Part shown: piece after piece, positions 4,060 to 30,400 of the stretch
Numbering within the stretch: the stretch's first letter is position 1
Layout: every line of letters begins with the position of its first letter
Notes under the pieces: generated by a model
Databases searched by the model: none
What the model was told of the DNA's origin: nothing
Seen by the model: only the letters and a program-made list of their open reading frames with translations
Assembly: GCA_035527515.1 (NCBI GenBank)
Contig: DATLAJ010000034.1
Coordinates: forward strand, 1 to 32,683
Origin: a bacterium
GTDB lineage: Bacteria; B130-G9
Reading direction: 5' to 3'
Length of the DNA: 32,683 nucleotides
Made by a program: the position numbers and the translations under genes

Positions 4060-5091
4060 ATGCCAGTTTTCTTCAGCGACAAGGGGAGTCTCTCCGAACC
4101 TGAGAAGGTCCACTTTGCAGACCAGAACTACGAGCAGGTCGCGGTCGGCAAGCCGCTCTGCGTGGAGATAATTCACGTGGGTTTTGGCGACACGAGGGAC
4201 ATATTTGGGAAGGCGGAGGTTTTGGTGTCCAGCTGGGCGAGGCTTGGTGGAGCGGGCAAACCTGGGCCGAGCCTGATTAACGTTATGCGGACTGGGGTTG
4301 ACGCTTTCGACCACCTGTCGAGTTTCGGGGCCGCCGAGTATGCCAACCCACTGGTGTTCTACACGCCCAGTTACAGTGGCGAAAGGCTGCATCTCTCGAT
4401 CGAGATGCTCGAAATCGATAAGCTCCGAGCAGATGGCGTCCAGCGCCTCGGCGAGGCGCTGAGCGAGCTTTCACAGCTGACGGTTTTTGCGTCGCAGCTT
4501 GCTTTTATGTCGCTTGCGCCGGATGCCTTAAACTTAGGGCGCAAGCTCTACAACCTGCTGAACAGGAACGATCAGGTGCTCTTGGAGCGTCTGGACCTTG
4601 CGTTCAACGAGCCAGACCTGAAGGTCTTGACGTCCGGACGGTTCGTTCTGGTGCACAAGGAGCAGAGCACGTCCGCAATCCTGAAGAACTTCAAGCTTTC
4701 CGCTGGGAGCGAGCTTGTGACGGAGGACGGCAGGCCGGCGGAAGAGGCAGGGATGAAAAGCCCATACATCGTCATACGAATTGACGCGAAGGACAGGCCG
4801 GAATACAGGGATTTTGAGATCGATAGCGCCACCCAGGATGAGCTGCGGAAGTTCCTAAACGAGAGCGTAACGGAGGATTTCGCGGAGTTTCTGCGGTCTG
4901 GAGTTCGCGACACGGCGAACCTCAACGCGGTTCTGAAGCTGCTGCGATTGAAGAGACAGCTGGACGCTACGCGGGACGACAGCAGGATGCGGGCGATTGT
5001 GCAGGAGGCTCAGAATGAGATGAGGAAGCTTCCGGATGAGATCAATAATCTGCTACTTACCGCTCTCTCGGCCTCTGAAAACGTGAGCTAA
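4060..5091 (+). CDS. unrecognised cytosolic protein, beta-rich N-terminus plus helical C-terminus
   Basis: A 343-residue protein without signal peptide or membrane segment, started at the ATG with an AAAGGAG site. Residues about 1-130 look like a beta-sandwich: alternating strands such as PLCVEIIHVGFGD, KAEVLVSSWARLG and RLHLSIEMLEID. Residues about 130-190 are helical and hydrophobic (TVFASQLAFMSLAPDALNLG, then LYNLLNRNDQVLLERLDLAF). A second beta portion follows (SGRFVLVHKE, SPYIVIRID). The end is charged and helical, possibly a short coiled coil. The N-terminal layout recalls prokaryotic C2-like domains, but this is a guess from pattern. It is the only plus-strand gene between 1004 and 21418 and has no operon partner. 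Function unknown; the reading frame itself is convincing. Confidence 0.75.
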   Translation: MPVFFSDKGSLSEPEKVHFADQNYEQVAVGKPLCVEIIHVGFGDTRDIFGKAEVLVSSWARLGGAGKPGPSLINVMRTGVDAFDHLSSFGAAEYANPLVFYTPSYSGERLHLSIEMLEIDKLRADGVQRLGEALSELSQLTVFASQLAFMSLAPDALNLGRKLYNLLNRNDQVLLERLDLAFNEPDLKVLTSGRFVLVHKEQSTSAILKNFKLSAGSELVTEDGRPAEEAGMKSPYIVIRIDAKDRPEYRDFEIDSATQDELRKFLNESVTEDFAEFLRSGVRDTANLNAVLKLLRLKRQLDATRDDSRMRAIVQEAQNEMRKLPDEINNLLLTALSASENVS

Positions 5092-5192
5092 GGGAACAGG
5101 GCCGGCGACGCTGAGGCTTTGGCTGGCAGAGCGCACTGAGATTGCCATCTGCCGCTATGCGCAGCGTTGCTGGCCCGGACCTGACCTCGCCA

Positions 5193-5399
5193 CTAAACGA
5201 GAACCTCCACCTCACGCATCGATACTGTAAGTGGCATTCCCCGCTCAGCCCGGACTTCAAGGCACTGCCTTATCGCGTCTTTGATGTTGTGAAGCGCCTC
5301 TTGCTCCGTCTTGCCCTGACTGACGCATCCGGGAATTGAAGGGCATTCGACGACAATCATGCCGTCCTCGTCGCGCTCAAATGTTACAATGAATCTCAA
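5193..5399 (-). CDS. HicB-family antitoxin-like protein
   Basis: A 68-residue protein with the HicB fold signature: MRFIVTFERDEDGMIVVECP, then PGCVSQGKTEQEALHNIKDAI. HicB proteins normally neutralise the HicA mRNA interferase and repress their own operon. The start is a TTG two bases after the stop of the upstream SPFH gene, with AAGGAG inside that gene's last codons, so translation is probably coupled to it. No HicA frame (small, lysine-rich, with a GSHI-like motif) follows: the 100 bases to the next gene hold only short frames. There is no C-terminal DNA-binding helix, as in the short HicB-like subfamily. It may be a solitary or relic antitoxin. Confidence 0.8.
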   Translation of the reverse strand: MRFIVTFERDEDGMIVVECPSIPGCVSQGKTEQEALHNIKDAIRQCLEVRAERGMPLTVSMREVEVLV

Positions 5400-5401
5400 C
5401 G

Positions 5402-6403
5402 CTATGTCTCCTTCCTGTTGCCTACACCCTCCAGCATCTCTTTGATGCCACCGATTGAGCTGAGGACGCCGGTCGCCTCAAACGGCAGATAAACAACCTT
5501 GTTGTCTTTGCCGGAGACCATCTCCTTCAGCGTGTCGAGGTAGCGGACAGCGATGAGGTAGTTTGCGGGGTCACCCTTGCTCTCGGCAATTGCCTTCGTG
5601 ACCATGTTGATCGCCTCCGCCTCTGCGCTTGCGACCTTCACGCGGGCCTCAGCCTGCCCCTCTGCCATCAATACCTTTGCCCGCTTCTCGCCTTCAGCCC
5701 GGTTGATCTTGGACTCTTTGACGCCCTCCGCCTCCAGAATCCTTGACCGCTTGTCGCCCTCCGCTATCAAGATTGTGGCTCGCCGGTCTCGCTCGGCACG
5801 CATCTGCTTCTCCATCGCATCCCTGATGTCCTGGGGCGGATTGATGTCCTGAAGCTCCACGCGATTGACCTTGACGCCCCACTTGTCCGTCGCCTCGTCA
5901 AGTATCTGACGCAGCTTGTTGTTGATCGTGTCGCGGGACGTGAGGGTCTCGTCCAGGTCAAGCTCGCCGATCACGTTCCTCAACGTCGTCTGCGTCAGCT
6001 TCTCGATCGCATCCGGCAGGTTTGCGATCTCATAGACAGCCTTTACGGGGTCCGTGATCTGGAAATAGAGCAGCGCATTGATCTCGGTAACCACGTTGTC
6101 CTTGGTGATGACGTTCTGACGAGGAAAATCATAGACCGTCTCACGCAGGTCGATGCGTTTCACAAGCCGCATGATAACTATCTTGTGGCCCCGCCCGTCC
6201 TCGCGAGTGAACCGCCACTCGATCTGCCTCGGCTTGTCGACGATCGGCCAGATCACGTTGATGCCAGATTGGAGCATCCTGTCGAACTTGCCCAGCCGCT
6301 CGATTACGAGCGTTTCAGCCTGCTGGACAATTACCAGCCCCCGTGCTGCGAAAATGATGATGAAAAGGGCTACTACTGCAACGATAACTATTCCGGCGCC
6401 CAC
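5402..6403 (-). CDS. qmcA: SPFH/band 7 (stomatin-like, QmcA type) membrane protein
   Basis: A 333-residue member of the SPFH/stomatin/prohibitin superfamily. An N-terminal membrane anchor (about residues 3-22) is followed by the band 7 domain with VIERLGKFDRMLQSGINVIWP and the segment VITKDNVVTEINALLYFQI. Next comes a long alanine/glutamate-rich coiled coil (about 190-270, with repeats like AEGDKRSRILEAEGVKESK) and a conserved tail, YLPFEATGVLSSIGGIKEM. These proteins form ring-like oligomers that organise membrane microdomains and affect protease and membrane-protein quality control. Translation starts at a GTG three bases after the nfeD stop, with GGAGGAG in the end of nfeD. An NfeD partner directly upstream is the classic pairing. 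The symbol follows E. coli QmcA by family; orthology is inferred. Confidence 0.9.
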   Translation of the reverse strand: MGAGIVIVAVVALFIIIFAARGLVIVQQAETLVIERLGKFDRMLQSGINVIWPIVDKPRQIEWRFTREDGRGHKIVIMRLVKRIDLRETVYDFPRQNVITKDNVVTEINALLYFQITDPVKAVYEIANLPDAIEKLTQTTLRNVIGELDLDETLTSRDTINNKLRQILDEATDKWGVKVNRVELQDINPPQDIRDAMEKQMRAERDRRATILIAEGDKRSRILEAEGVKESKINRAEGEKRAKVLMAEGQAEARVKVASAEAEAINMVTKAIAESKGDPANYLIAVRYLDTLKEMVSGKDNKVVYLPFEATGVLSSIGGIKEMLEGVGNRKET

Positions 6404-6406
6404 GGC

Positions 6407-6865
6407 TCACTCCTCCTGGTTCTTCGCAATGCTTTTGACAAACAGCTTGGTCCCCTCAACTCGAATGACCTCAACCCTCTCTCCCCTCTCGATCACAGAA
6501 TCGTCAGTTGACGTTGCCCTCCAATCATCGCCGCCCAAAGCTGCCCTACCTTTGCCGACAGAGGGGTCTATTCTCTCGGTAACGAGACCAACCTTGCCCG
6601 CAAGCGCATCAACGTTCGTTCTCACCGCAGCATCCTTATCAGAACGATAAATACGCTTGACGAAAAGCGGCCTGACTGTGAAGAACGCAACCAACGAGGC
6701 AACGCAAAAGACGACTACTTCAATGGTAAAACTCACGTCGAATGCGGCGAAAATAGCGGCCACCAGACATGCCACGCCAAAACACGCCACGACGAAGCCG
6801 GGCGTAAATATCTCCATGATAAGGAGCAGCACTCCGACGATAACCCAAATCTGCCAGCTCTCCAC
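6407..6865 (-). CDS. NfeD-family membrane protein
   Basis: A 152-residue NfeD protein of the short type. The GTG at 6865 is chosen because AGGAGG lies 7 bases before it; an ATG eight codons earlier would place that site inside the gene. Three membrane helices occupy about residues 3-64 (IWVIVGVLLLIMEIFTPGF and two more). A soluble beta-barrel (OB-like) domain follows, with ALAGKVGLVTERIDPSVGKG, ending in GERVEVIRVEGTKLFVKS. NfeD proteins act together with the adjacent SPFH protein in membrane-domain organisation. It is first in a three-gene run, nfeD - SPFH - HicB-like. It lacks the N-terminal protease domain of long NfeD forms. Confidence 0.88.
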   Translation of the reverse strand: MESWQIWVIVGVLLLIMEIFTPGFVVACFGVACLVAAIFAAFDVSFTIEVVVFCVASLVAFFTVRPLFVKRIYRSDKDAAVRTNVDALAGKVGLVTERIDPSVGKGRAALGGDDWRATSTDDSVIERGERVEVIRVEGTKLFVKSIAKNQEE

Positions 6866-7822: not shown

Positions 7823-8197
7823 CTAATCATCCCCTATCGGGGTGACCGTAGCCGCTTCCACCATTAGAACCACCGTGCGCTCTGGAGCGCGCGGGCGATG
7901 GATGACGCCCCTTGGAACCACTGTCCCCTGATGCGAGGACAGTTCTATCGTTCGGCCTTCCAAATCAATGAGCAAACACCCTTTAACAACGTAGAAGAAC
8001 TCCTCTTCTTTTTCGTGCCGATGCCAATGGAACTCACCCTTTAGGATTCCGAGACGCACCACAGAGTCGTTGACTCGGCAGAGCGTCTGGTTGAACCATT
8101 CGTGTTCGCAGGCCCGCTCGAGCTCCGCCAGATCAATACGTTCTAGAGGGCCGAATTCGACGTCTGTGTTTATATGGTATTCTGTTTTCTTCCCCAT
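7823..8197 (-). CDS. small cupin-domain protein
   Basis: A 124-residue single-domain cupin. The ATG at 8197 is chosen because GGAG lies just upstream; in-frame TTG codons earlier have no such site. Cupin motif 1 is clear, with His57, His59 and His61 in GEFHWHRH, Glu65/Glu66 and Gly73 in VVKG. Motif 2 is VPRGVIHRP with His100. These histidines and the glutamate normally hold one metal ion. Small proteins of this type range from sugar isomerases to dioxygenase-like or binding proteins, and the sequence does not say which. The MGMT-like gene follows closely on the same strand, so the two may be cotranscribed. Confidence 0.85.
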   Translation of the reverse strand: MGKKTEYHINTDVEFGPLERIDLAELERACEHEWFNQTLCRVNDSVVRLGILKGEFHWHRHEKEEEFFYVVKGCLLIDLEGRTIELSSHQGTVVPRGVIHRPRAPERTVVLMVEAATVTPIGDD

Positions 8198-8282
8198 TGC
8201 GTCTCCAGCAGCAGCCAATCTAGTATCATCAAACGAAATCAGTAGGTCAGAATATCAAACATGAGCGCTAGCGTCTAAACTC

Positions 8283-10562
8283 TCATTCGAACTGACCATG
8301 ATCTTGATGTCTAGTCGTCGCTATGCGAAACTGGCACGTCGCCAGGTTCGACATATACGTCGTCGTGCCCTGCTCAAAGAGCGCGGCATAAGCATAATAG
8401 ACGCCCGAGGGCAGCCCAGCATCGAGCGGCGCCTCAAGCAGCGTGAAATCCTCCAGGTCGAAATGGCCCGGTATCCAGCCCGAGTAGTATGGGCTGTAAT
8501 CCATCGACAGGCTCGGGAGGTAGAGCAGCGTCTTGTCCGGCAGCTCAATCGCCGCGGCGAGGTCGGCGAAGAGCTCGCCTCCGGGGTTTGAGAGAGCGAG
8601 CGACAGCCGAAGCGTATCGCCAACATAATACTTGGCCTGCGACGTCGAAAGCGAGACAAAAGGCGTGAGCGGGTCAAGGAACGAGAAGACCGCGGCGCCC
8701 GCGGCGTAGATCGTGTTGCCCGTCTCGCCGAAATCGACCACAAGCGCTGTCGTGTTCGAGCACTCAAGCCCCTCCGTCGAGAGTGAGGTCCACGTCTTGC
8801 TGCCATCTCTGGTGTGGTGAACGCCTTTGTAGCCTGATATGTAAAAATCATCGCTATCGCTCGGGTTGATCGCCATGTCATAGACCGAATCGACCGGCGT
8901 CTCGAGTCGGTCCCAGCTATCTCCAGAATCGCTGGACCTGTATAGCCCCCCGCCGTACCACCCATCGCTCGCGTAAACCGCAGAGGAATCAACCGGGTCG
9001 AACTCAACGAAGAATGGGTTAATGCCCAGTCCTTCGACGAGATGGAAGCTATCTCCGTAGTCTGTTGTTAAATAGAGACCCTCCGAAGTGCAGACGAATA
9101 CCCGATTGGGGTCTCTCGGGTCGATCGCGACAACGTAGGTAACGCAGCCGCTCCCTCCGACGAAATTCGAGAGTCGCTGCCAAGTGAAGCCCAGGTCCTC
9201 CGTCCTGTAAATCGCATCACTCAGCATCGCGACGTATATCCTGCGAGAGTCGCTGGGGTCAACCGCGATGTCCTCACACCAATCCCATTGCCCGCCCGGC
9301 CAATACGAGAAGAACTCCCAATCCTGCCCTGAATTGTGGGACACCTGAATGATGTCCTCAAAGGGGCTGCCCTCATAAAGCACGCTCTTATCGTTAGGGT
9401 CTTGAGCGACACAGATCGAGTATATGTCCCTGAAGTAGTCGTTGATCTCCCAGCTTGAACCCGCATCGGTGCTTCTGGCTAAGATGTATGGGCCGGCCAC
9501 AACAAGTGTCTTCATTGCGTCATCACAAGTTAAAAGTTGAGAGGCCATTTGGGCGATCAACCCATTCGACGAGAACTCGGCGCTGTTACAGCCATCCGTT
9601 GAGCGGCAAATGCCTGAGTCCGAGCCGACTAGGACCTCGTTGCTATCAAACGGCGAGACGTCGATGAAGCTTCCGCCATAGTCACTGCACATCAAGGTCC
9701 AACTATCGCCGCCGTCCTCCGAATAATATAGCCCCGTAGTACCATAACAGGCATACATTCGTGAGGGATCATCCCTGCAAAAGCAGATGTCATTCACCAG
9801 AACTCCGACATCAGTCCAGGTAAATCGCTCCTGATCCCAGCGGTAGAGGCCCCAGTCGCTGATGAAGACATCGGAGGAGTCGATCGGCGAGACATATATC
9901 CCTTGTGGCCAGAAATACAAGAGGTCTAAACCATAAGGCAGGTCTTCCCAGGTAATCCCGCCGTCCACGCTTCGCTTTGGTGCACTATAGACACACCCAA
10001 TCCAAATCGTCTGCGGGTCATCAGGATCGATGCAGACCGCGGAAGGTTGTGGGCCAGTAAAGACCATCTCCCACGTCGCGCCTCCGTCCAAGGTCTGAAA
10101 AAGCCGGCCAAGTTCGAACGTGTCATATACGGCGACGCACAGGTGGCCAGCATCGTTCGGATCGAGGGCTATCGCCGAGAGGTCTTGATTGCCCCAGGGC
10201 GCGCTGATGCCCTCCCAGGTTATTCCGCCGTCCACGGATTTGAAGAGCGACTCATCATCGAAACAGCAGATATGGGCAAAAACCAGCCCTCCTACGCTCC
10301 TGCTTGCGCAGAAGCAAGCGGAAGAAACATCATCGGCGGGGAGATCAGGGACGCTCCTCTCCCAGGTTACGCCGCTATCCTGCGACCTGAAGAACCCGTT
10401 CTCGCCGCCTGCATAGCAGAGTCCTGGGGTCTGGCAGTCGTATTGGACTCTTGTGATATAGCCACCATAAGGCCCGTTGGTCTCCCAGAAGCCCTCGCCA
10501 GCAATGCCCAGCTGGCAAAGACAGAAGATAACCACCGTCAGGCTCAAAATACACCGTTTCAT
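8283..10562 (-). CDS. secreted Asp-box (BNR/sortilin-like) beta-propeller protein, copy 2
   Basis: A 759-residue exported protein with a signal peptide (MKRCILSLTVVIFCLCQLG, cut near AGEG). About twelve Asp-box turns of the form S-x-D-x-G-x-T/S-W are spread evenly, for example RSQDSGVTW, KSVDGGITW, RSSDSGDSW and HTRDGSKTW. The interleaved phrases AIDPRDPNRVFVCT and VEFDPVDSSAVYA are typical of VPS10/sortilin-type ten-bladed or doubled propellers. From about residue 640 a beta module begins (STSQAKYYVGDTLRLSLA), also present in the 10604 and 1078 proteins. The RBS context GGAGGCAAGA-ATG matches that of the paralogue. It lies 41 bases downstream of that paralogue on the same strand, so they are probably one transcript. 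Ligand unknown; sialidase-type catalytic residues are not evident. Confidence 0.85.
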   Translation of the reverse strand: MKRCILSLTVVIFCLCQLGIAGEGFWETNGPYGGYITRVQYDCQTPGLCYAGGENGFFRSQDSGVTWERSVPDLPADDVSSACFCASRSVGGLVFAHICCFDDESLFKSVDGGITWEGISAPWGNQDLSAIALDPNDAGHLCVAVYDTFELGRLFQTLDGGATWEMVFTGPQPSAVCIDPDDPQTIWIGCVYSAPKRSVDGGITWEDLPYGLDLLYFWPQGIYVSPIDSSDVFISDWGLYRWDQERFTWTDVGVLVNDICFCRDDPSRMYACYGTTGLYYSEDGGDSWTLMCSDYGGSFIDVSPFDSNEVLVGSDSGICRSTDGCNSAEFSSNGLIAQMASQLLTCDDAMKTLVVAGPYILARSTDAGSSWEINDYFRDIYSICVAQDPNDKSVLYEGSPFEDIIQVSHNSGQDWEFFSYWPGGQWDWCEDIAVDPSDSRRIYVAMLSDAIYRTEDLGFTWQRLSNFVGGSGCVTYVVAIDPRDPNRVFVCTSEGLYLTTDYGDSFHLVEGLGINPFFVEFDPVDSSAVYASDGWYGGGLYRSSDSGDSWDRLETPVDSVYDMAINPSDSDDFYISGYKGVHHTRDGSKTWTSLSTEGLECSNTTALVVDFGETGNTIYAAGAAVFSFLDPLTPFVSLSTSQAKYYVGDTLRLSLALSNPGGELFADLAAAIELPDKTLLYLPSLSMDYSPYYSGWIPGHFDLEDFTLLEAPLDAGLPSGVYYAYAALFEQGTTTYMSNLATCQFRIATTRHQDHGQFE

Positions 10563-10603
10563 TCTTGCCTCCCTTGATTTACATCACTCTATGCTTAGCT
10601 ATG

Positions 10604-12877
10604 TTATCTTGTGCCCTTGATGAAGCGGAAGTGCTCAACCGCCAGGTTCGACATATACGTCGTCGTGCCCTGCTCAAAGAGCGCGGCATAAGCATAATAG
10701 ATGCCCGAGGGCAGCCCAGCATCGAGCGGCGCCTCGAGCAGCGTGTAGTCCTTCAGGTCGAAATGTCCCGGTATCCAGCCTGAGTAGTATGGGCTGTAAT
10801 CCATCCACAGGCTCGGAAGATAGACCAGCGTCTTGTCCGGCAGCTCAATCGCCGCGGCCAGATCGGCGAACAGCTCGCCGCCCGGATTCGAGAGATCGAG
10901 CGCCAGCCGAAGCGTATCGCCAACATAATACTTGGCCTGCGACGTCGAAAGCGAGACAAAAGGCGTGAGCGGGTCAAGGAACGAGAAGACCGCGGCGCCC
11001 GCGGCGTAGATCGTGTTTCCCGCCTCGCCAAAATCGACCACAATCGCCTCTATGTTCGTGCACTCAAGGCCCTCCGTCGAGAGCGAGGTCCACGTGTTTC
11101 CTCCGTCCCTAGTGTGGTGAACGCCCATGTAGCCCGATATGTAGAAGTCGTTGCTATCGCTTGGGTTGATCGCCATGTCATAGACCGAATCGACCGGCGT
11201 GTCGAGCCTCTCCCAGCTATCTCCAGAATCGCTGGACCTGTAAAGCCCTCCGCTGCTCGAATCGCCAGCATAAACGCTCCTCGGGTCGTTGGGATCGAAC
11301 TCGACGAACGCCGGCTCCGCATGAACGCTGCTGGTCCTCTCGAAGCTCTGCCCATCATCGGTCGAGCGATATAGCCCATTCGACGTGCAGACGAAGATGC
11401 GCCTCGGTGCGCTCGGGTCGATCGCCACGGAATAGATGTAGCCGTATTCGCTAGTCGATGCGAAAACAGGCAGCTCATCCCAGCTTAAGCCGGCGTCTCT
11501 CGTCCGGTAGATAGATGTGTTTACACCGAGGAACATCGTGTCCGAATCGGTCGGGTCAACCGTGATGGCGTCAACCCAACCTACGTTGAACGGGAAGTGA
11601 CAGAACACGTCCCAGTCCTGGCCAGAGTTATCAGAGAAGGAGATTATCTCGTCCGAAGAGTCGGTCGCGTAAAGCCTTTTGAGGTCACTTGGGTCTTGCG
11701 CTAGATAAAGGCTATAGTTGTCCATGAACGAATGGTCAAGTTCCCAGGTCCCGCCCGAATCGGCGCTCCTGGCGAGAAGATGGTAGCCCGCGCATACCAA
11801 AACGCTCTTCGCAGCGTCGCAGGCGACGAGGTATTCAGCTTCCTGAGCAACAAGGCCGTCGCACGAATAATTCACGTTCTGGCAGCCGTCCGTTGAGCGC
11901 CAGATGGCCGTCAGGTCTCCGACCAGGACCTCGCCAACGGTCGCAGGGCACGCATCGATGAACACGCCGCCCACTCCAACGTTTCGCACTTGCCAAGATG
12001 CGCCTCCGTCATCGGAGGAGTAAAGGCACGAGTAGTCGCAGGCGAACATCTTGCTGGGGTCGCCCGGCCAGAAACAGATGTCGGTTACATCAATGCCCGC
12101 TGCTTGCCACGCATAGCTCGACTCATCCCATCGATACAGGTAGTCGTACCCAGAACAGAAGAACACGGCGGACGAATCGCCCGGCGAGACGTACATCCCG
12201 CGCGGATAAATGCAGTCGCCCGGCAACAGCCCCTGGCCCAGGTCCTCCCAGCTAGCTCCGCCGTCGGTCGTGCGCTTGGGGAAACCGTAATTACAGCCGA
12301 TCCAGATCGTCTCCGAATCGCTTGGGTCTATCGCGATCGCATAGACCTCTACACCCTCGTAGATCCTGTTCCAAGATGTGCCGCGGCTCTTGGACTCCCA
12401 GACCTCGCCCCCGTTGTAAGTGCCAGTCCAGACAGATAGCGCTACGCACACGTGGTTCGCATCGTTCGGATCGCAGGCAACATCATCTACGTAACCGTCC
12501 CAAGGCGTCATGAGAGGCGCCCACGTCTTGCCGCCATCCTGCGACCTGAAGAATGGCCATGACTCCTCGAAGTACCCTATTCTGGCAAAGACCAGCCCTG
12601 AAAGAGCTTTACTGACGCAAAAGCGACTGCAAAAGACACCCGAGTCGCTCGCGGTGAGGTTGGGGATGCTGCGCCGCCAGGTTACGCCGCCGTCTTCCGA
12701 CCGGAAGAACCCGTTCTCACCGCCGGCATAGCAAAGCCCTGGGGTCTGGCAGTCGTATTGAACTCGATTGATATAGCCGCCATAAGGGCCGTTAGTCTCC
12801 CAGAAGCCCTCGCCAGCAAAGCCCAGTCCGTAAACGCAAAAGATAATCGCCGTCAGGGTCAAAATGCGCCGTTTCAT
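10604..12877 (-). CDS. secreted Asp-box (BNR/sortilin-like) beta-propeller protein, copy 1
   Basis: A 757-residue paralogue of the 8283 protein and first of the pair. It starts at an ATG with AAGGAGG six bases upstream. The signal peptide is MKRRILTLTAIIFCVYGLG. About twelve Asp boxes include RSEDGGVTW, RTTDGGASW, RTRDAGLSW and HTRDGGNTW. In both copies the sixth is degenerate at the same place (RSTDGC). The first 60 residues and the last 200 are nearly identical to the other copy, while the middle blades differ strongly. The terminal module (about 640-750, GDTLRLALDLSNPGGELFADL) is shared. Such propellers bind proteins or glycans in the envelope or outside; no catalytic site is evident. Tandem repeats lie in its leader region. 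Confidence 0.86.
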   Translation of the reverse strand: MKRRILTLTAIIFCVYGLGFAGEGFWETNGPYGGYINRVQYDCQTPGLCYAGGENGFFRSEDGGVTWRRSIPNLTASDSGVFCSRFCVSKALSGLVFARIGYFEESWPFFRSQDGGKTWAPLMTPWDGYVDDVACDPNDANHVCVALSVWTGTYNGGEVWESKSRGTSWNRIYEGVEVYAIAIDPSDSETIWIGCNYGFPKRTTDGGASWEDLGQGLLPGDCIYPRGMYVSPGDSSAVFFCSGYDYLYRWDESSYAWQAAGIDVTDICFWPGDPSKMFACDYSCLYSSDDGGASWQVRNVGVGGVFIDACPATVGEVLVGDLTAIWRSTDGCQNVNYSCDGLVAQEAEYLVACDAAKSVLVCAGYHLLARSADSGGTWELDHSFMDNYSLYLAQDPSDLKRLYATDSSDEIISFSDNSGQDWDVFCHFPFNVGWVDAITVDPTDSDTMFLGVNTSIYRTRDAGLSWDELPVFASTSEYGYIYSVAIDPSAPRRIFVCTSNGLYRSTDDGQSFERTSSVHAEPAFVEFDPNDPRSVYAGDSSSGGLYRSSDSGDSWERLDTPVDSVYDMAINPSDSNDFYISGYMGVHHTRDGGNTWTSLSTEGLECTNIEAIVVDFGEAGNTIYAAGAAVFSFLDPLTPFVSLSTSQAKYYVGDTLRLALDLSNPGGELFADLAAAIELPDKTLVYLPSLWMDYSPYYSGWIPGHFDLKDYTLLEAPLDAGLPSGIYYAYAALFEQGTTTYMSNLAVEHFRFIKGTR

Positions 12878-12899
12878 TCTTGCCTCCTTAAATTGACAT

Positions 12900-12962
12900 C
12901 ACTGGTTACAGTTCACTGGTTACAGTTTCACCTTATCCAAACGAAGCAGAAAAACTGTAACA
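12900..12962 (-). promoter_or_regulatory. tandem and inverted repeats in the leader of the propeller operon
   Basis: CACTGGTTACAGTT occurs twice in tandem (12900-12913 and 12914-12927), just upstream of the Shine-Dalgarno site of the 12877 start. AAACTGTAAC (12953-12962) is the inverted partner of GTTACAGTTT about 35 bases away. The layout suggests operator sites or an RNA structure. On the minus strand a weak promoter (TTACAG, 18 bases, ATAAGG) overlaps them, but I do not rely on it. Confidence 0.4.
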
Positions 12963-13087: not shown

Positions 13088-13240
13088 GGAGGCTGTCCAA
13101 TAAGTCGGTTTCAACGGGGATGACGCAGCGGGGTATGCCATACGTAGGGGCAGGCCTTGTGTCTGACCGAATATATAGATGGACGGAGACAAGAAGGCTG
13201 TCCCTACACAACCTCAGACCCGACTTATTGGACAGCCTCC
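13088..13240. mobile_element. MITE-like element, copy A, perfect 21-bp terminal inverted repeats
   Basis: The ends at 13088-13108 and 13220-13240 are perfect 21-bp inverted repeats built on GGCTGTCCAATAAGTCGG. A second inverted repeat lies inside: GTAGGGGCAGGCCTTG pairs loosely with the GGACGGAGACAAG arm around AATATATAGAT, so the whole 153 bases can fold into one long hairpin. It holds no credible gene and is closely similar to copy B at 16179. The size and ends fit a non-autonomous transposable element mobilised by a transposase coded elsewhere. A clear target duplication is not visible. Confidence 0.7.
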
Positions 13241-15997: not shown

Positions 15998-16072
15998 TGG
16001 AGGCGGCACCGGGACTCGAACCCGGGATCGAGGATTTGCAGTCCTCTGCCTTAGCCACTTGGCTATGCCGCC
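15998..16072 (-). tRNA. tRNA-Cys (GCA)
   Basis: The minus strand folds into a full cloverleaf. The acceptor arm GGCGGCA pairs with TGCCGCC, the anticodon loop is CTGCAAA with anticodon GCA, and the T arm is CCGGGTTCGAGTCCCGG. The discriminator base is U73, an identity element for cysteine, and CCA is encoded (15998-16000). Confidence 0.95.
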
Positions 16073-16178: not shown

Positions 16179-16329
16179 AGAGGCTGTCCAATAAGTCGGT
16201 TTCTACGGGGATGACGCAACGGGGTATGCCACATGTAGGGGCAGGCCTTGTGTCTGCCCGAATATATAGATGGGCGGAGACAAGCCCCGCCCCTACACAA
16301 CCTCGGACCCGGCTCATTGGACAGTCTCC
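16179..16329. mobile_element. MITE-like element, copy B
   Basis: Closely similar over its length to the element at 13088. The left end reads GAGGCTGTCCAATAAGTCGG and the right end, CCGGCTCATTGGACAGTCTC, carries a few mismatches to it. The internal arms GTAGGGGCAGGCCTTG and CCCCGCCCCTAC flank AATATATAGAT. It fills most of the 351-base gap between tRNA-Cys and lpxC and encodes nothing credible. Open frames across it in both copies give matching peptides only because the DNA is repeated. Confidence 0.68.
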
Positions 16330-21418: not shown

Positions 21419-24400
21419 ATGCCTGCACTTCGGATGCGTTGGATCATTGTGGTGCTGTGGATGCTGGGCACAATGGCCCTGGCGCCACAAGCTTTCGCAG
21501 AAAGCATAAACATTGTCCTTGATTTCCCCGTTGATCAGTTATCTATAACCCCTAAGGACGATTACGACCAGATAAGGCTCCGCGGGTGTTATATCGCCTC
21601 GGATGTGGGCGCACCGGCGCTGCCTCAAAAGAGCGTCTATGTGTCCATCCCGTTTGACAAGAGCGTCGATCATGTTGAGGTATGCGCCGTCTCAAGACTT
21701 GTTCTTGATGGGCAATACACCGTATATCCTATGCAGCCTCCCGTCCCGACGGACAGTGGCGGCGCTGCGGGATTCGTGGCCCCAGACCCGTCGATCTACA
21801 GCTCTGACGCACCGTATCCGGCAAACGCTGTTGAGCAGACGAAGTCGGGCTCCCTTGCGGGCTACAAGATCGTAGGTCTTTTAGTTACACCGTTCGAGTA
21901 CAAACCGGTCTCACAGACGCTCACATTCTTCACATCAGTATCGCTAAGGCTGGACCTCGCGCCGGCCCCGCCTCAGGCGCTTGCCGTGACGAGGCGAAGT
22001 GATGTTCTCGAGAGGTCAAGTCGAGAGAGGATTTCAAAGCTAGTTGTCAACAAGGGCTCCATCAGCCCGCCAAGACTTTCCCCCAGCGTCTTGGGAACGT
22101 TCGACACGGTTGACTGCGTGATCATCACGGGGAGTTCCTACACGTCCCAGATGGAGCCGCTGGCGGACTGGATGATCAAGAAGGGCTACAGGACGGAGAT
22201 TCATACGGTCTCAGCGATCAGCAGCTCCTACGGCGGGACGGACACACAGGAGAAGATCAGGAACTTCCTCAAGGATTACTACAGCAACAAGGGCCTGGGA
22301 TGGGTGATACTTGGCGGCGACACAAGCGTTGTGCCGGCGAGGGCGGCCTACGCCTTTGACGTGGAAGGCGACGGTTACACCTACGATGACTATCTTTATT
22401 GCGATTACTACTATGCTGACCTGGACGGCACGTGGAACGACGACGGCGACTCGCTTTGGGGCGAGGTCAACGCTGACAACATAGACATGTATGCTGACCT
22501 TCTGGTCGGCAGGTTGCCGTTTGATACGACCAGCGAGGCGGAGGTAGTTGTCGAGAAAACGCTGGTCTATGAGGGTGTTGGCTCAACGCAGATGCCTACC
22601 GACTATCAGAAGAAGCTGCTGATGTTCGCCTGCGAGCTCGATGGAGCGACCTCTGGCGGGGACTGTAAGGACGAGCTGGAGAACTACGTGGGCATCCCAG
22701 GCGACTACACGATCACGAGGCTTTACGACCGCGACGGCACATCCGGCAAGACTAACATCGTCAACGCCATGAACTCCGGCTACAACCTGATCAACAACGT
22801 GGGTCATGCTAACTACTCGGTGATGAGCGCGAAATACACAGGGACCCGTGAATACCTTTACCGAGACGACATGTCCGGGCTTGCCAACGGGCCTCGTTAC
22901 TCAGTTTTATATACGATCGGCTGTTGGGCGGCAGCGATAGACTACGACTGCATGGGCGAGCGGTTCGTTCTCTCTCCAAGCGGCGGCGGCGTCGCGTTCA
23001 TCGGGAACAGCCGGTATGGATGGTTCAGCTCTGGTTATCCCGGTTACGGGCCTTCCGACGCGTTCGACCAGGAGTTCTACTCCGCGATTTTTGACAGCGG
23101 GACTTTCGAGCTAGGCGCTGCGCTTTCAGACTCGAAGCAGGTTTTTGCAAGCTACGCAAAGGGCAGCTATAGCTCGAGCAAGTATTACCGCTGGGTCCTT
23201 TACGAATTGAACCTTTTGGGATCGCCGACAACGCCCGTCTGGACAGATACGCCATCGTCCATGAGCGCAAGCTACGACAGCACGCTAACGGTGGGGCAGA
23301 CAGAGTTTGATGTTCACGTTGAGAGCAGCGGGCCGGTTCAGTCCGCGCTAGTATGTCTTTACAAGGAGGACGAGGTCTTTGAGACGGCCGAGACCGATTC
23401 GAGCGGCTTGGCCCACGTGACGCTCTCTCCGCCGCCGACATCAACGGGGACGATGTTCGTAACAGTCACCAAGCACAATTACCTGCCCGAAAGAGGCAGC
23501 GCCGAGGTTCAGGACGGCAGTAGCTCCGGGCCTGAACTGAGCGACGGGTCGGTCTCGCCAGAATATGGGCAGTCAACCGATACCTTTACGTATTCTGTGC
23601 ACTATTATCATGCAGATTCGGAGCCACCGGCGACCGCGGACGTCTATATCGACGGCTCTCCGCAAACGATGACGTTGGCCTCCGGCCAGGCGGCGGACGG
23701 CGACTACGAATACGAGGCATCGTCGCTTTCTGCTGGCGATCATTCGTTCTACTTCTACTTTGAAGACGGAAACGGCAAGAGCGACAGGTTGCCCGCCTCA
23801 GGAACTTCTGATGGGCCGTTCGTTGACGACACGAAACCCTCCTCGAGCTGCTCAAGTCCGAGCTACTCGACCTCGCAGCCAGCGTCGATCACGTTCACGT
23901 CATCCGACGGCGAAGGATGCGGCATCTACGAGACCAAGCTCTATTACAGGTTTGATGGCGGCAGCTACAGCTACTCCGGAGAGTCGGAGTCGGGCACATC
24001 TGGCTCGTTCTCCTTCTCATTCCCCGATGGACAGGGGACCTATGACTTCTACACTATCGCCATTGACAACGCCGGCAACGCCGAGGACCCGCCGGGCTCC
24101 GCCGACGACACGACTATCTACGACTCGCAAGCGCCCGTCTCATCCTGTTCGTCACCCACCTATGGCACGTCGCCGATAGCCGTAACCTACACCGCATCGG
24201 ATGGCGGAAGCGGCCTGGCCAACACGAAGCTCTACTACAGCTATAGCGGAGGCAGCTTCACGTTCTCCGGGCACCAGGCTAGCGCCAGTTCTGGCTCGTT
24301 CTCCTTCGTCCCTCCCGATGGCGAAGGAACCTACTCGTTCTACACGATAGCCTACGACAACGCTGGCAACGAGGAGGGCGCGCCGGGCTCTGCGGACGAC

Positions 24401-27400
24401 ACCACTATATACGATGGAACAAAGCCCTCGTCTGCCGCTTCCTCGCCAACGTACGCCACGTCGCTGCCCATAACCGTCTCCTTCACCGCATCCGACACCG
24501 GCTCGGGCATCGGCTCGACGGCGCTTTTCTACAGCCACGATTCTGGCAGCTATTCGTATTCTGGCCAGACGAAGAGCGGGACGTCGGGCTCGTTCTCATT
24601 CTCGGCAACCGAGGGCGAGGGCACGTACAGGTTCTACACGCTTGCGACCGACAACGCCGGCAACGAGGAGGATGCGCCGGGCTCTGCGGACGACACGACC
24701 ATCTACGACTCTACCAGACCCGAATCATCTTGCTCCTCGCCAGAGTATGCCTACTCAAGTCCGATCACCATCACGTTCACGGCGTCCGATTCGCTCAGCG
24801 GCGTCTCAACAACCAAGCTCTACTACCGCAAAGACGGTGGAGATTACTCGTATTCTGACCTCGAGGAGAGCGGGACCTCGGGGTCGTTCTCGTTCTCGCC
24901 GCCTGACGGGGATGGCACGTTCGACTTCTACACGCTTGCGACCGACAACGCTGGCAACGAGGAGGACGCGCCAAATGCGCCCGACTCATCGACCGAGTAC
25001 AGAGAGACGGACAACACCAGGCCTGAGTCGTATTGCGAGGCGCCGGAGTATGCGACCTCGATCCCAATTGATGTGGAGGCTTTCGCGTCGGACGATGAAA
25101 GCGGCGTTGCGCAGACGAGACTCTATTACAGCTTCAACGGTGGGGAGTATGAGGATTCTGGCGTAACGTGGTATGGGGACAGCTTCTGCTTCCTTCCTCC
25201 GCCTCTGCACGAGGTCTTCGTTTCTCTGGACGGCACACCGGACGCTACGGGGACGATAGACGACCCGAAGAGCCTCGAGAGCGTGGTAACGGATGCTGAG
25301 CTCGCGGCCGGAACCATAGTGTGGCTGCGCGCGGGTGAGTATTCAGGGGCTTTATCACAGTCGTCGGCTCAGGATGGCACGCCCGATCATCCGGTCATCG
25401 TTATGCCTTTCTGCGGCGAGCGAGCTACGCTTCTGGATGAGGTCTCCCTGCGAGGAGATTCCACATACTGGATAGGCGTTGAGCTCACCAGCTCCGGCAC
25501 ATCCGGCGGAATCGACATATACGACGGCGACGACGTTCGCCTCGTGAACTGCATCATCCACGACCCTCCTAACGGGTATAACGGCATTGGTGGCTGGAGG
25601 GTTGGTTCCGGCCACATATTTTATGGGAACTTGATCTGGGGGATAGCACCCAATCACGAGGACCCGCACGGGCACGCCATCTATACACAGAACGATTCCC
25701 CTAATTACGGGCTGAAGACCATCACCAACAACATATTGTTCAACAACAACAAGTTCTCGTTGCACGCCTACTGCGAGGGTGGGACTGAATTGAGCGGCTT
25801 CAGAGTCACCAACAACATATCGTTCGGCAACAGTAGATACTTCCTGCTCGGAGGCGGGGGGAACATCACGCTCCGCGATAATGTCGTCTCATCCAACTAC
25901 TTCTATGAGCCTAAGACATATCCTTTCATGCCAGGGTGGTATGGGCCGACGGACACGATGACAATCACGGACAATTATGTAGCTTCCGGCGGCAGCCCAG
26001 CCTGGTTCAGACGACACGAATATGGCTCCATAGTGAGAGGCAATACTTTCATCTCGTCCGGGACTTACCGGCTGTTTTTCGACGAATATCAGGACGAGTC
26101 GCCCGAATACAGCACGTTCGAGTGGGATGAGAATACCTATTACGTTGGTGCCACGGATGATTTTAGAGTCCTTTACTGCCGCAGCGATGGGAATACATCT
26201 TACAGCCTCGAAGAATGGCGTAGTCTGACAGGATGGGATACCAACAGCCAGATAGTTGAGGCACAGAAGCCGTCCCAGAACAAGACCGTTGTCCTATCGA
26301 ACAGATACAAGATCAAGCGGGCTCACATCGCGATCTACAACTGGGAGGCGTCCGACAGTGTTGACGTTGACGTCTCCTCGATTCTGAGTGCCGGCGACTA
26401 TTTCCGGCTAGTGGACGTTGAGGATTACTTCGGGGAGCCAGTCTTAAAGGGCTTTTACGATGGCGAACCGCTCTCGGTCCCGATGGCAGAGGAGTTCAAA
26501 TGCTTCGTGCTCTCTGCGTCATCCTTCACCCCACCCGAGGGCGAGGGCACGTACGCCTTCTACACGATCGCCACGGACAAGGCCGGCAATGTCGAGCTCC
26601 CTCCGGATGAGCCCGATGCGGTTACTGTCTATGACGAGACGGCCCCGGTCTCTGGCTGCTCGTGTGATTCGGACGTCAACCACAGCCCCATCTCGATCTC
26701 TTTCTCATCTCAGGACGAGACAAGCAGCGTGGCAAACACAAAGCTCTACTACAAATTCAACAGCGGCAGCTGGACCGATACCGGTCTGGAGGAGACAGGC
26801 ACGTCAGGGGCCTTTGAGTTCACGTTCTCGCACGGCGAGGGGACATATTACTTCTACACACTGTCCACGGATGCGGCAGGCAATGACGAGGCGACGAAGG
26901 AGGCTCCGGACGCATCTTGTGTCTATGACACAACCAAGCCAACCTCGGCTTGCTCATGCGGCCAATTCGCCAGCTCACTCCCCATCGTCATCCAGTTCGA
27001 GGCGCATGACGGCGGCAGTGGAATGGCATCAACCAAGCTCTTTTACAGTTTTGACGGAGGAGATGCCACCGACTCGGGCCTCGAGACAGATGGCACGGCC
27101 GGCAGCTTTGAGTTCAACGCCCCAGACGGGGAGGGCACGTTCAACTTCTACACCATCGCAGTTGACGCCGCCTCAAATGAGGAGACGCCTCCGCAGAGCG
27201 CCGACTGCAATGCCATCTACGACGCAACGTTGCCCAGCTCCTCATGTTCGTCGCCTGACTACTCCAACGGCGATCAGATAGCGGTCAGTTTCACCGCCTC
27301 GGACACACTAAGCGGCATCTCATTCTGCGACCTTTATTACAGGTTCGGGGATGGCGAATGGACGTCGAGCGGGCTTCGCGAGTATAGCACCTCGGGGAGC

Positions 27401-30400
27401 TTCAACTTTGAGCCGGCCGAGGGCGACGGAACCTACCAGTTCTACACGATCGCAACGGATAGAGCTGGGAACGCGGAGGGGACGAAGTCCGCCGAGACGA
27501 CGACGGCTCTTGATACGCAGGACCCGAGCTCAAGCTGTAGCTGCCCCAGCATTACCAAAGCGAGCTCCGTGGAGGTCGCCTTCTGCGCGAGCGACGAGTC
27601 GAGCGGGCTTGCTCAGACGAGACTCTATTATCGGTATGCAGGGGGCGAGTGGGTGGACGCGGACGAGGCAGGCAGCGACGAGGCGGGAACATTCGTCTTC
27701 TCGTTCGGCGACGGCGATGGGATATATGAGTTCTACACAATCGCAACGGACATCGCTGGCAACACCGAGTCCGTGCCCGAAGAGCCCGATGCGACGGTGC
27801 TCTCTGACAGGTCTGCGCCAGCGTCCGAGTGCAGCTCGCCAGAGTCTGCCGGCCAGGGATTCGACGTGAACTTCTCCTCCGACGACGGCGAGGGATCGGG
27901 GGTTGTCTCAATTGACCTCTGGTTCAGATTCTCTTATGACCAGGGACAGACGTGGCACCCGGACTGGACAGCGAGCGGGACCTCGTCATCGGAGCCCGCC
28001 GGCGCCTTCTCCTATCAGCCCGAATTGGGCGAGGGGATATACGAGTTCTACACGATCGCAACGGACGATGCTGGGAACATCGAGGAGGCCTCGCAGACCG
28101 CCGACTGCACCACACATTATGTCACGGAGAAGCCTACATCGAGCGCCTCGTCGCCTGAATACGCGAACAGCGACACCATACCCGTCTCGTTCGAGGCGCG
28201 TGATTCGAGCGGCATCAAGGAGGTTCAGCTCTATTATCGCTATGCGCAGCAGGACGGCTCGGATTGGACTGACTACACTGACAGCGGTTACAGAGCCTAC
28301 ACTCAGGAGGGGACCTTTGACTTCGTCGCGGAGAGCTTCTACGGCGAGGGCATATATCAGTTCTACACAATAAGCGTTGACGCCGCAGACAACGTCGAGG
28401 ACCCGCCGGAGCAGGCCGACTGCCAAACCATCTACGATGCAACGTTACCGAAATCGTATCTATTCTCGCCGGATTACGCGTCGGCCGCGTCGATCAGTTC
28501 GGTCTTTACAACCGACGAGGACCTGTCTGGCATTGACAAGGTCGAGCTTTGGTTCCGCTACTCCGATGATAACGGCGGGACGTTTGAACCGGACTGGGGC
28601 TCAAGCGGCGTCTTCTCCGAGGCCACGGGCGGGTCTCTCATGTTCGGCGCTGAGGATGGGGACGGACTCTATGAGTTGATGACACTCGCAGCGGACAACG
28701 CTGGCAACCAGGAGGATAAGGGCCAGGCAGCAGACCAGACCGTCATCTTGGACACCATCGCGCCGGCCGCGACCGTATCGTGCATGGAATACGCAAGTGA
28801 GCTCCCGTTGCGCCTCGAGTTCACGGCAACGGACGGCACGATCGGTTCGGGCGTGGCATCCGTTCTCTTCTGGTATCGCTTCGAGGAGGGAGATTGGACG
28901 CCAACAGGTCTCGAGACCGAGGGGACTTTTGGCACCGTGTCGTTCTCGCCCAGCGAGGGCAGCGGCACTTACCAATTCTTCGCCATATCGAAGGACTCGG
29001 CCGGCAACGCCGAACCGATCTATTATGAGCCAGAAGCCGAGCTGGTTTTCGACGACCAGATGCCGGCATCATTCGCATTCTGCTCCAACTTCAGCACATC
29101 GTCCGTGATAGAGGTCGGCTACGAGGCCACAGGCCGAGAGAGCGGCATTGCGAGCGTGTCGCTGTTCTACCGGTTCAGTTCGGACGGAGGCTCCAGCTGG
29201 GCACCGGATTGGACGGATTCTGGCCAGAGTCGCTACACACCGTTCGGGAGCTTTGACTTCACAGCTGACCAAGGTGAGGGTAGATACGAGTTCTACACGA
29301 TTGCTGAGAATAACGCCGGCAGCGTCGAGCCTGAGCCAAGCAGTGCGGACGCCTGGTGCATGAACGATCACACTCCTGCATCCTATCAACTCTCCTCGCC
29401 GGAACTCTCAAACAGCTCGCCCATCAACGTAGATTTCGAGGTCGATGACGGTCAGGCCGGCAGCGGCCTTCGCTCCATCGAGCTATATTACCGCTTTGAT
29501 GGCGGAGATTGGCGGGCGTCAGGCCTCGATTCAAGCCAGACGGCGGGAACGTTCGCCTTCACGCCTGAGCAGGGAGACGGAGTGTTCGAGTTCTCCGCGC
29601 TCGTCATCGATAAGGCTGGAAACTCCACGGCGGGTTCGTTCGAGGTGAAGACCAGCACGGAATACGACACTGCCGCACCCTCTTCAACACTCGCAGGCCC
29701 AACTACCGTCAATCAAGGGCCGCTTCAACTGCATTATGAGGTCTTGGAGACCGATGGCCTTCTAGAAGTTTCGCTGTTTTATAGGTTCAGCCAGAGCTGT
29801 GGAGAGAGCTGGGACGTCCCGTGGACCGATTCGGGCCTGTCAGGCGCCGACGCTGAGGGTGATTTTACATTTGAAACGGAGCAAGGTGAGGGGTGGTATC
29901 AGTTTAAGTCGATCGCAGAGGACGAAGCCGGCAACGTTGAGCAAAAAGAGGCTGCTGACACTCAAACTGTTCTCGATTCAGCCCAGCCGGTCTCCTCGCT
30001 CGAGGGGCCTGAGTGCGCCTCAGGCTCGACCATCCTAATCAGCTTCGTGGCCTCCGACCCGGGCTGCGGCTCCGGCATCGTTGCAGTCCACCTGTTCTTC
30101 AGCTCTGCGGTCTCTGACTGGGAGGAGGCGGACGTGGGAGCCACGGGCACCGAGGGCGTCATCCAGTTCGAGCCGCCTGACGGTGAGGGGTGGTATCAGT
30201 TCTACTCCCAGGCTGAAGACGCCGCCGGAAATTTGGAATCCACCAGCGGAGCGCAGATCGAGGTTACGTTCGACACAACCCCGCCAGAATCGAGCTGTCA
30301 GGCAGAGCCCTATCCGTCGCACTCACCGGTCGAGGTCGGAATGCAGGCGGCAGACGCCACAACCGAGCCGGTCGCGATCGCGCTTTACTACCGGTTCAGA

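Follow-up and report, generated by a model that had tools for sequence, protein, structure and literature searches.

Adhesin genes of Helicobacter pylori provide a described case of paralogues with similar ends and a divergent middle: in babA/babB and homA/homB, the 3′ segment evolves in concert and this is attributed to intragenomic conversion (PMC3960876, PMC2795765, PMC4552749). For the mammalian tandem paralogues TLR1 and TLR6, a C-terminal stretch is described in which independent conversions have made paralogues more alike than orthologues (PMC2077338). Gene conversion has also been reported for ppe18 and ppe57 in an outbreak of M. tuberculosis (PMC12046097).

Here we describe a bacterial tandem pair, genes A and B, with the same shape of similar ends and divergent middle as the H. 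pylori adhesins. Unlike those adhesins, the proteins concerned carry a beta-sandwich tail on beta-helices or on propellers of the Asp-box or another type, and they belong to several families of one genome; they are not known to undergo phase variation or to have a role in a host. TLR1/TLR6 differ from A and B in being animal receptors with only the C-terminal part affected. The kind of event is already known; what is new is the setting, the recurrence in several families and an unnamed domain.

Genes A and B lie on the minus strand of a 32,683-nt stretch of DNA, the window analysed here. A (8283–10562) encodes 759 aa and B (10604–12877), located upstream of A across a 41-nt gap, encodes a 757-aa paralogue. 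The product of A has a hydrophobic N-terminus followed by Asp-box/BNR beta-propellers and then by a C-terminal beta-sandwich domain (CTD). A domain search finds Asp-box/BNR, PSII_BNR and Sortilin-Vps10 matches in both products (Sortilin-Vps10 in A, E 3e-24), and both look secreted, with a putative signal peptide judged by eye. The CTD occupies 8319–8669 in A (profile match E 3.6e-42) and 10622–10969 in B (E 2.1e-38), both on the minus strand.

The structure model of A has a mean pLDDT of 69.7 and a pTM of 0.58, with most blocks of the propeller part at pLDDT 65–94. In the fold comparison its best match is to GH74 tandem propellers (6p2m_A, Z 29.9 over 576 residues, rmsd 6.3); residues 25–631 of this predicted model align to the GH74 chains as two seven-bladed propellers in tandem, and single propellers already reach Z of about 26–27. 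While A resembles GH74 xyloglucanases in this tandem 7+7-bladed arrangement, it differs from them in sequence (13–20% identity) and in the extra CTD of both A and B. Read from the fold, A would be a putative glycan binder or hydrolase.

Elsewhere in the window, a tRNA-Cys gene is found at 15998–16072 (minus strand). An ORF of at least 3755 aa (21419–32683) runs off the window end; it starts with a C25 (gingipain-type) peptidase with propeptide, and its later part contains repeats spaced about 291–315 nt.

The original prediction, that the two genes have conserved ends around a strongly diverged middle, holds: the DNA of A and B matches only at the ends, and protein identity over the middle (residues 77–530; 8973–10334 of A, minus strand) is 46%. 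Repeat finding gives direct repeats at 8340–8639/10640–10939 (offset 2300, 93% identity) and at 10336–10588/12651–12903 (offset 2315, 83%). Searching the own genome at the DNA level with gene A as query yields four matches, namely A itself, two tracts in B and a stretch of 27 nt on a different contig. The first B tract is 614 nt long (nt 1610–2223 of A, codons 537–741) and 91% identical, which fits the predicted match 'almost base for base' at offset 2300. This 3′ tract, at 8340–8953 in A and 10640–11253 in B (both minus strand), comprises the end of the propeller part and the CTD. The second covers nt 1–227 of A (codons 1–76) at 83% identity; together with 26 nt upstream, this 5′ tract corresponds to 10336–10588 in A and 12651–12903 in B, again on the minus strand. 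The first 60 codons had been called nearly identical. They are indeed similar, but the degree was overstated, with 83%, 90% and 77% DNA identity in 40-codon windows starting at codons 1, 21 and 41, and 84% protein identity over codons 1–56.

The similarity of the ends extends to synonymous sites. Based on Nei-Gojobori counts, used here for pS and dN/dS by region, pS between A and B is 0.35 in codons 1–56, 0.74 in codons 77–530, where synonymous sites are near saturation, 0.22 in codons 537–742 and 0.15 in codons 626–742. Agreement at third codon positions is 39% within the inner block (residues 76–530 of A) and 78% outside it; the corresponding two-breakpoint chi-square of 110.6 was reached by 0 of 500 shuffles (shuffle maximum 21.3). 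Fourfold-degenerate sites agree in 45 of 104 cases within the middle, compared to 89 of 107 within the 3′ end. Given the low synonymous divergence at the ends, protein constraint alone does not produce this pattern.

Relatives of A and B were found at E 1e-20 or better in 5 of 41 genomes searched: the own genome (G000), a genome of the same genus (G001), two of the same family (G002, from another genus, and G003) and, with a remote match, G016. The family sample thus consists of four genomes. The G001 gene (G1) is a 3′ fragment, the G002 gene (G2) is the orthologue of A, and G003 has its own tandem pair (G3a and G3b).

The gene tree switches between the middle and the 3′ end. In the middle (residues 77–530), A groups with G2 (support 99/99) and the AU test rejects a grouping of A with B (p-AU 0.0034). 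At the 3′ end (537–742), A groups with B (96/95), and A, B and G1 group together (98/97), while A with G2 is rejected (p-AU 0.0045). The CTD-only tree likewise joins A and B (96/96) and rejects A with G2 (p 0.0025). Site patterns follow the same switch: positions at which A equals G2 and not B number 340 in the middle (57–530) and 27 at the 3′ end (537–742), compared to 141 and 146 at which A equals B and not G2. Thus A resembles its paralogue more than its orthologue at the 3′ end, and its orthologue more than its paralogue in the middle.

The combination of low synonymous divergence at the ends alone with this change of tree points to gene conversion of the ends, as had been proposed. For the 3′ end, conversion is well supported by the AU-tested conflict and by the drop in pS from the middle to the 3′ end. 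For the 5′ end, conversion may account for the similarity, and what speaks for it is synonymous identity: in codons 1–56, pS is 0.80 for A-G2 and 0.64 for B-G2, well above the A-B value, and in the tree of these just 56 codons neither A with B (p-AU 0.49) nor A with G2 (p-AU 0.18) is rejected. The 3′ tract is patchy, since in codons 551–600 A, B and G1 are almost equally distant from one another (pS 0.43 for A-B, 0.44 for A-G1 and 0.31 for B-G1).

The flanks suggest a direction of copying. Past the converted tract, A retains its own 3′ tail (8283–8339, minus strand); by eye, its final residues and its 3′ flank recall the downstream copy in G003, and those of B recall the G001 gene. Directly downstream of A lies a Cupin_2 gene (7823–8218, minus strand), and a 70% identical homologue directly follows the second copy of the G003 pair, whose upstream copy carries one in-frame TGA (locus L037, about 4320–6640). 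With a tandem pair and an adjoining cupin homologue in G003, the site looks syntenic. Since the tail of A is G003-like beside the same cupin gene and the tail and flank of B are G001-like, B is probably the donor and A the recipient at the 3′ end, a direction read from a short tail.

Two further observations concern the relatives. The G001 fragment (locus L038, 3–1022) is itself a further mosaic: its middle is of the A type (A+G1+G2, 97/98), and its 3′ end and flank resemble those of B. In codons of about 384–440, identity of A to G2 is 0.81–0.88 versus 0.65–0.68 to the same-genus fragment where they overlap.

Taken together, we consider it very likely that A and B are old tandem paralogues in which gene conversion has overwritten the ends, at the 3′ end probably with B as donor and A as recipient, and has spared the middles. 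The likeliest mechanism of copying would be homologous recombination between those segments that are most alike. The copied tail may be kept as a common functional module of secreted proteins, perhaps for surface attachment or export, and the propeller middles may do different binding jobs. Selection for function would then keep the tail uniform; alternatively, the tail may simply be the easiest substrate.

The strong difference between the middles had been ascribed to diversification of the binding face. In such a case, akin to antigenic or ligand variation, diversifying selection would act on the propeller face and conversion would preserve the scaffold. This has a precedent in the H. pylori Bab adhesins, and the middles do differ strongly, but the substitution pattern does not bear it out and we regard it as unlikely. 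dN/dS in the middle is 0.17 for A-B, whose synonymous sites there are near saturation. Between A and its orthologue G2, pS is 0.65 in the middle and 0.59 at the 3′ end, and dN/dS is 0.16 and 0.18, respectively. Accordingly, the middle does not evolve faster than the 3′ end. No sign of positive selection in the middle was found in 37 A-B sliding windows, a scan of low power in which 10 windows were saturated and gave no ratio and the other 27 gave ratios of up to 0.93. Within the middle, residues outside strands show less identity than those in strands (0.42 versus 0.54 for A-B; 0.35 versus 0.47 for A-G3b), and this drop is no larger for A-B than for A-G3b. The middles of A and B differ because the middle is old.

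A second alternative, slightly less probable again, is a recent tandem duplication after which one middle was replaced from a diverged donor. For a single pair this yields the same pattern, and the G001 fragment, joining an A-like middle to a B-like end, is in line with it. However, no donor was found. Further copies elsewhere in the genome had been suggested as possible donors, yet neither DNA nor protein search reveals a silent copy in the own assembly (95.6% complete): the only extra DNA match is the 27-nt stretch, and the next protein relative is 32% identical. A recent duplication is also at odds with G003, where a tandem pair adjoins this cupin gene, and with the recurrence of a common C-end in other families, described below.

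To describe this recurrence we use the CTD, which has 128 matches in G000 (E 1e-4). From the stretches fetched, 105 ORFs with 121 domains were recovered; the genes of the survey were therefore chosen for having a CTD. Among 138 pairs with a DNA match, 31 have tracts of at least 78% identity over at least 90 nt. The longest tract is at the C-end in 21 of the 31 and elsewhere, several times at the N-end, in the other 10. In 14 of the C-end pairs, from six families, the passengers are homologous and diverged (pS 0.65–0.83), while the tract is 82–92% identical with a pS of 0.19–0.56. Several of these 14 pairs lie on different contigs and, contrary to replacement of a middle, they have only the C-end tract in common. 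The remaining 7 are fragments or are similar along their length, and hence provide no passenger contrast. Neighbouring genes on contig C126 repeat the picture seen in A and B, with one pair having the C-end in common and another pair the N-end.

Synonymous divergence reveals the same bias. Passengers of at least 100 aa, present in 79 of the 105 ORFs, give 277 pairs, of which 271 with homologous passengers and a passenger pS of at least 0.6 were kept. The pS of the CTD is 0.6–0.8 in 239 of them and at most 0.45 in 11 (seven families, 17 genes). Windows of 40 codons with a pS of at most 0.35 are found in 85 of 2047 cases at the C-end (14 pairs), 8 of 598 at the N-end (2 pairs; after exclusion of 171 N-end windows from genes truncated on their 5′ side) and 17 of 10,902 in the middle (5 pairs), where 16 of the 17 adjoin a C-end tract. 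Because windows overlap and pairs within a family share genes, these are counts and not probabilities. No low-pS window is present at the C-end in 257 of the 271 pairs, suggesting that conversion is occasional. The number of families depends on the threshold: six by DNA tracts, seven by CTD pS and eight by windows, the eighth being C63/C72, which has a high pN in its middle window and may be due to chance. The C-end bias therefore recurs in about seven paralogue families around the CTD, and this is the new element of the present analysis.

The limits of the tracts vary. In the C60b, C40 and C111/C42 pairs they end at the stop codon; others run into the 3′ flank, for about 176 nt in C60a/C97 and to the end of the stretch examined in C131/C144. 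Among 16 pairs with a CTD match at the DNA level and no counted passenger match, we found no tail common to unrelated long passengers: in 15 one partner has a passenger of less than 100 aa, and in one (C146/C147) of 188 aa, with passengers that match over 101 aa.

The window also carries a 147-nt element at 13091–13237 and 16182–16324. By eye it has short terminal inverted repeats and is MITE-like; repeat finding with a 25-nt minimum gives no inverted pair for it. It has 22 matches in its own genome, 20 of them of at least 90 nt. From a comparison of positions, four of the 22 are situated no more than about 60 nt downstream (3′) of a CTD gene or match (C60:5269-5413, C97:6646-6751, C167:4946-5044 and C108:21274-21365), a plain count. 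The common 3′ flank of C60a/C97 reaches into the element.

The C60 propeller family, with a PQQ_2 match in one copy, provides a second genome. Identity over the last 60 codons is 0.89–0.95 among the four G000 copies and 0.91 among three of the four G002 copies, compared to 0.71–0.76 between the genomes. Identity of the passengers (residues 45–345) is 0.45–0.48 among G000 copies, except for one pair at 0.78; for the two G002 copies spanning this region it is 0.57. Homogenization of the tail has therefore happened in G002 too. The fourth G002 copy (C202a) is not homogenized at the tail, and its passenger (346–545) is 0.60–0.66 identical to C60a and C40 of G000 and 0.45–0.51 to its G002 paralogues. 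In the passenger tree calculated without C202a, a branch (86/92, not starred) also separates the four G000 copies from the rest, so that the C60 case relies on identity levels.

Stronger purifying selection on the ends than on the middle, with no conversion, is a third explanation, and we judge it very improbable. In its favour, ends are better conserved in protein at larger distances: identity is 0.56 and 0.61 at the ends and 0.39 in the middle for A-G3b, and 0.43, 0.45 and 0.32, respectively, for G3a-G3b. Constraint thus contributes. Nevertheless, the synonymous sites of A and B are also low at the ends, whereas the CTD is usually near saturation between paralogues, as in the 239 pairs above. 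In the G003 pair pS is high at either end (0.65 and 0.73), as constraint alone predicts, unlike in A-B. For the 3′ end, synonymous sites and the change of tree topology between middle and end rule out constraint alone. Finally, an assembly or binning artefact, conceivable for a draft assembly of 183 contigs, can be dismissed almost entirely: the common ends of A and B still disagree at 9% (3′) and 17% (5′) of sites, and many contigs, as well as a second genome, display the pattern.

Conversion of ends thus remains our preferred reading, and the domain at its centre deserves description. Modelled alone, the CTD of A is an eight-stranded beta-sandwich (pLDDT 95.9). Foldseek returns weak generic matches only, with a TM to the query of 0.38–0.65 among the 50 matches listed. 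The CTD of A has no match in Pfam, and the best among 18 CTDs (that of the window and 17 of the 24 rows of a search, which form the CTD alignment) is at E 0.0067 (MG2, two members). At E 1e-6, the CTD is found in 9 of 290 genomes, with at most 15 places scored per genome, and the four family genomes have the best E-values. Our literature search, in which subscription journals were mostly outside coverage, found no paper naming the domain or describing the A/B case.

In 82 of the 105 ORFs the CTD is C-terminal, the ORF ending within 25 aa of the last domain. Two others end 26 aa past it and four end 94 to 1148 aa past it, while 17 run at least 66 aa past the CTD, beyond the 200 nt fetched, so that the domain is internal or N-terminal there. 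More than one CTD is present in 15 ORFs. The CTD is mostly, not solely, a C-terminal domain. Its passengers include Asp-box propellers, other propellers, one beta-helix protein and, in the same open frame in three G000 ORFs (on C167, C38 and C1), a C25 peptidase.

A mostly C-terminal beta-sandwich on many secreted-looking proteins, C25 peptidases among them, recalls the CTDs of type IX secretion cargo. The assignment is nonetheless unsupported: Por_Secre_tail (PF18962) has no match in the own genome (one match, below the cut-off, among 14 controls), and SprA_N (PF14349) has none in the four family genomes, which are 83–96% complete, compared to 65 of 241 searched genomes with a match. PF14349 was used because the SprA model TIGR04189 matched nothing, controls included.

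A more speculative possibility, which we hold to be rather doubtful, is that the CTD would usually serve as C-terminal address or anchor in a not yet described route of surface display, with about a hundred clients in this genome, in a lineage in which no SprA was found; end-biased conversion would then keep the address uniform within each client family while the passengers diversify. The 17 ORFs with an internal or N-terminal CTD lower the odds of this anchor reading.

These results have several implications. Whole-gene trees for genes of this kind mix two histories. End-restricted concerted evolution, known from H. pylori adhesins and animal receptors, acts also in an uncultured environmental lineage, where several different propeller and beta-helix families are affected at once. 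With 128 matches in one genome, the unnamed CTD lends itself to tests of a role in sorting or anchoring.
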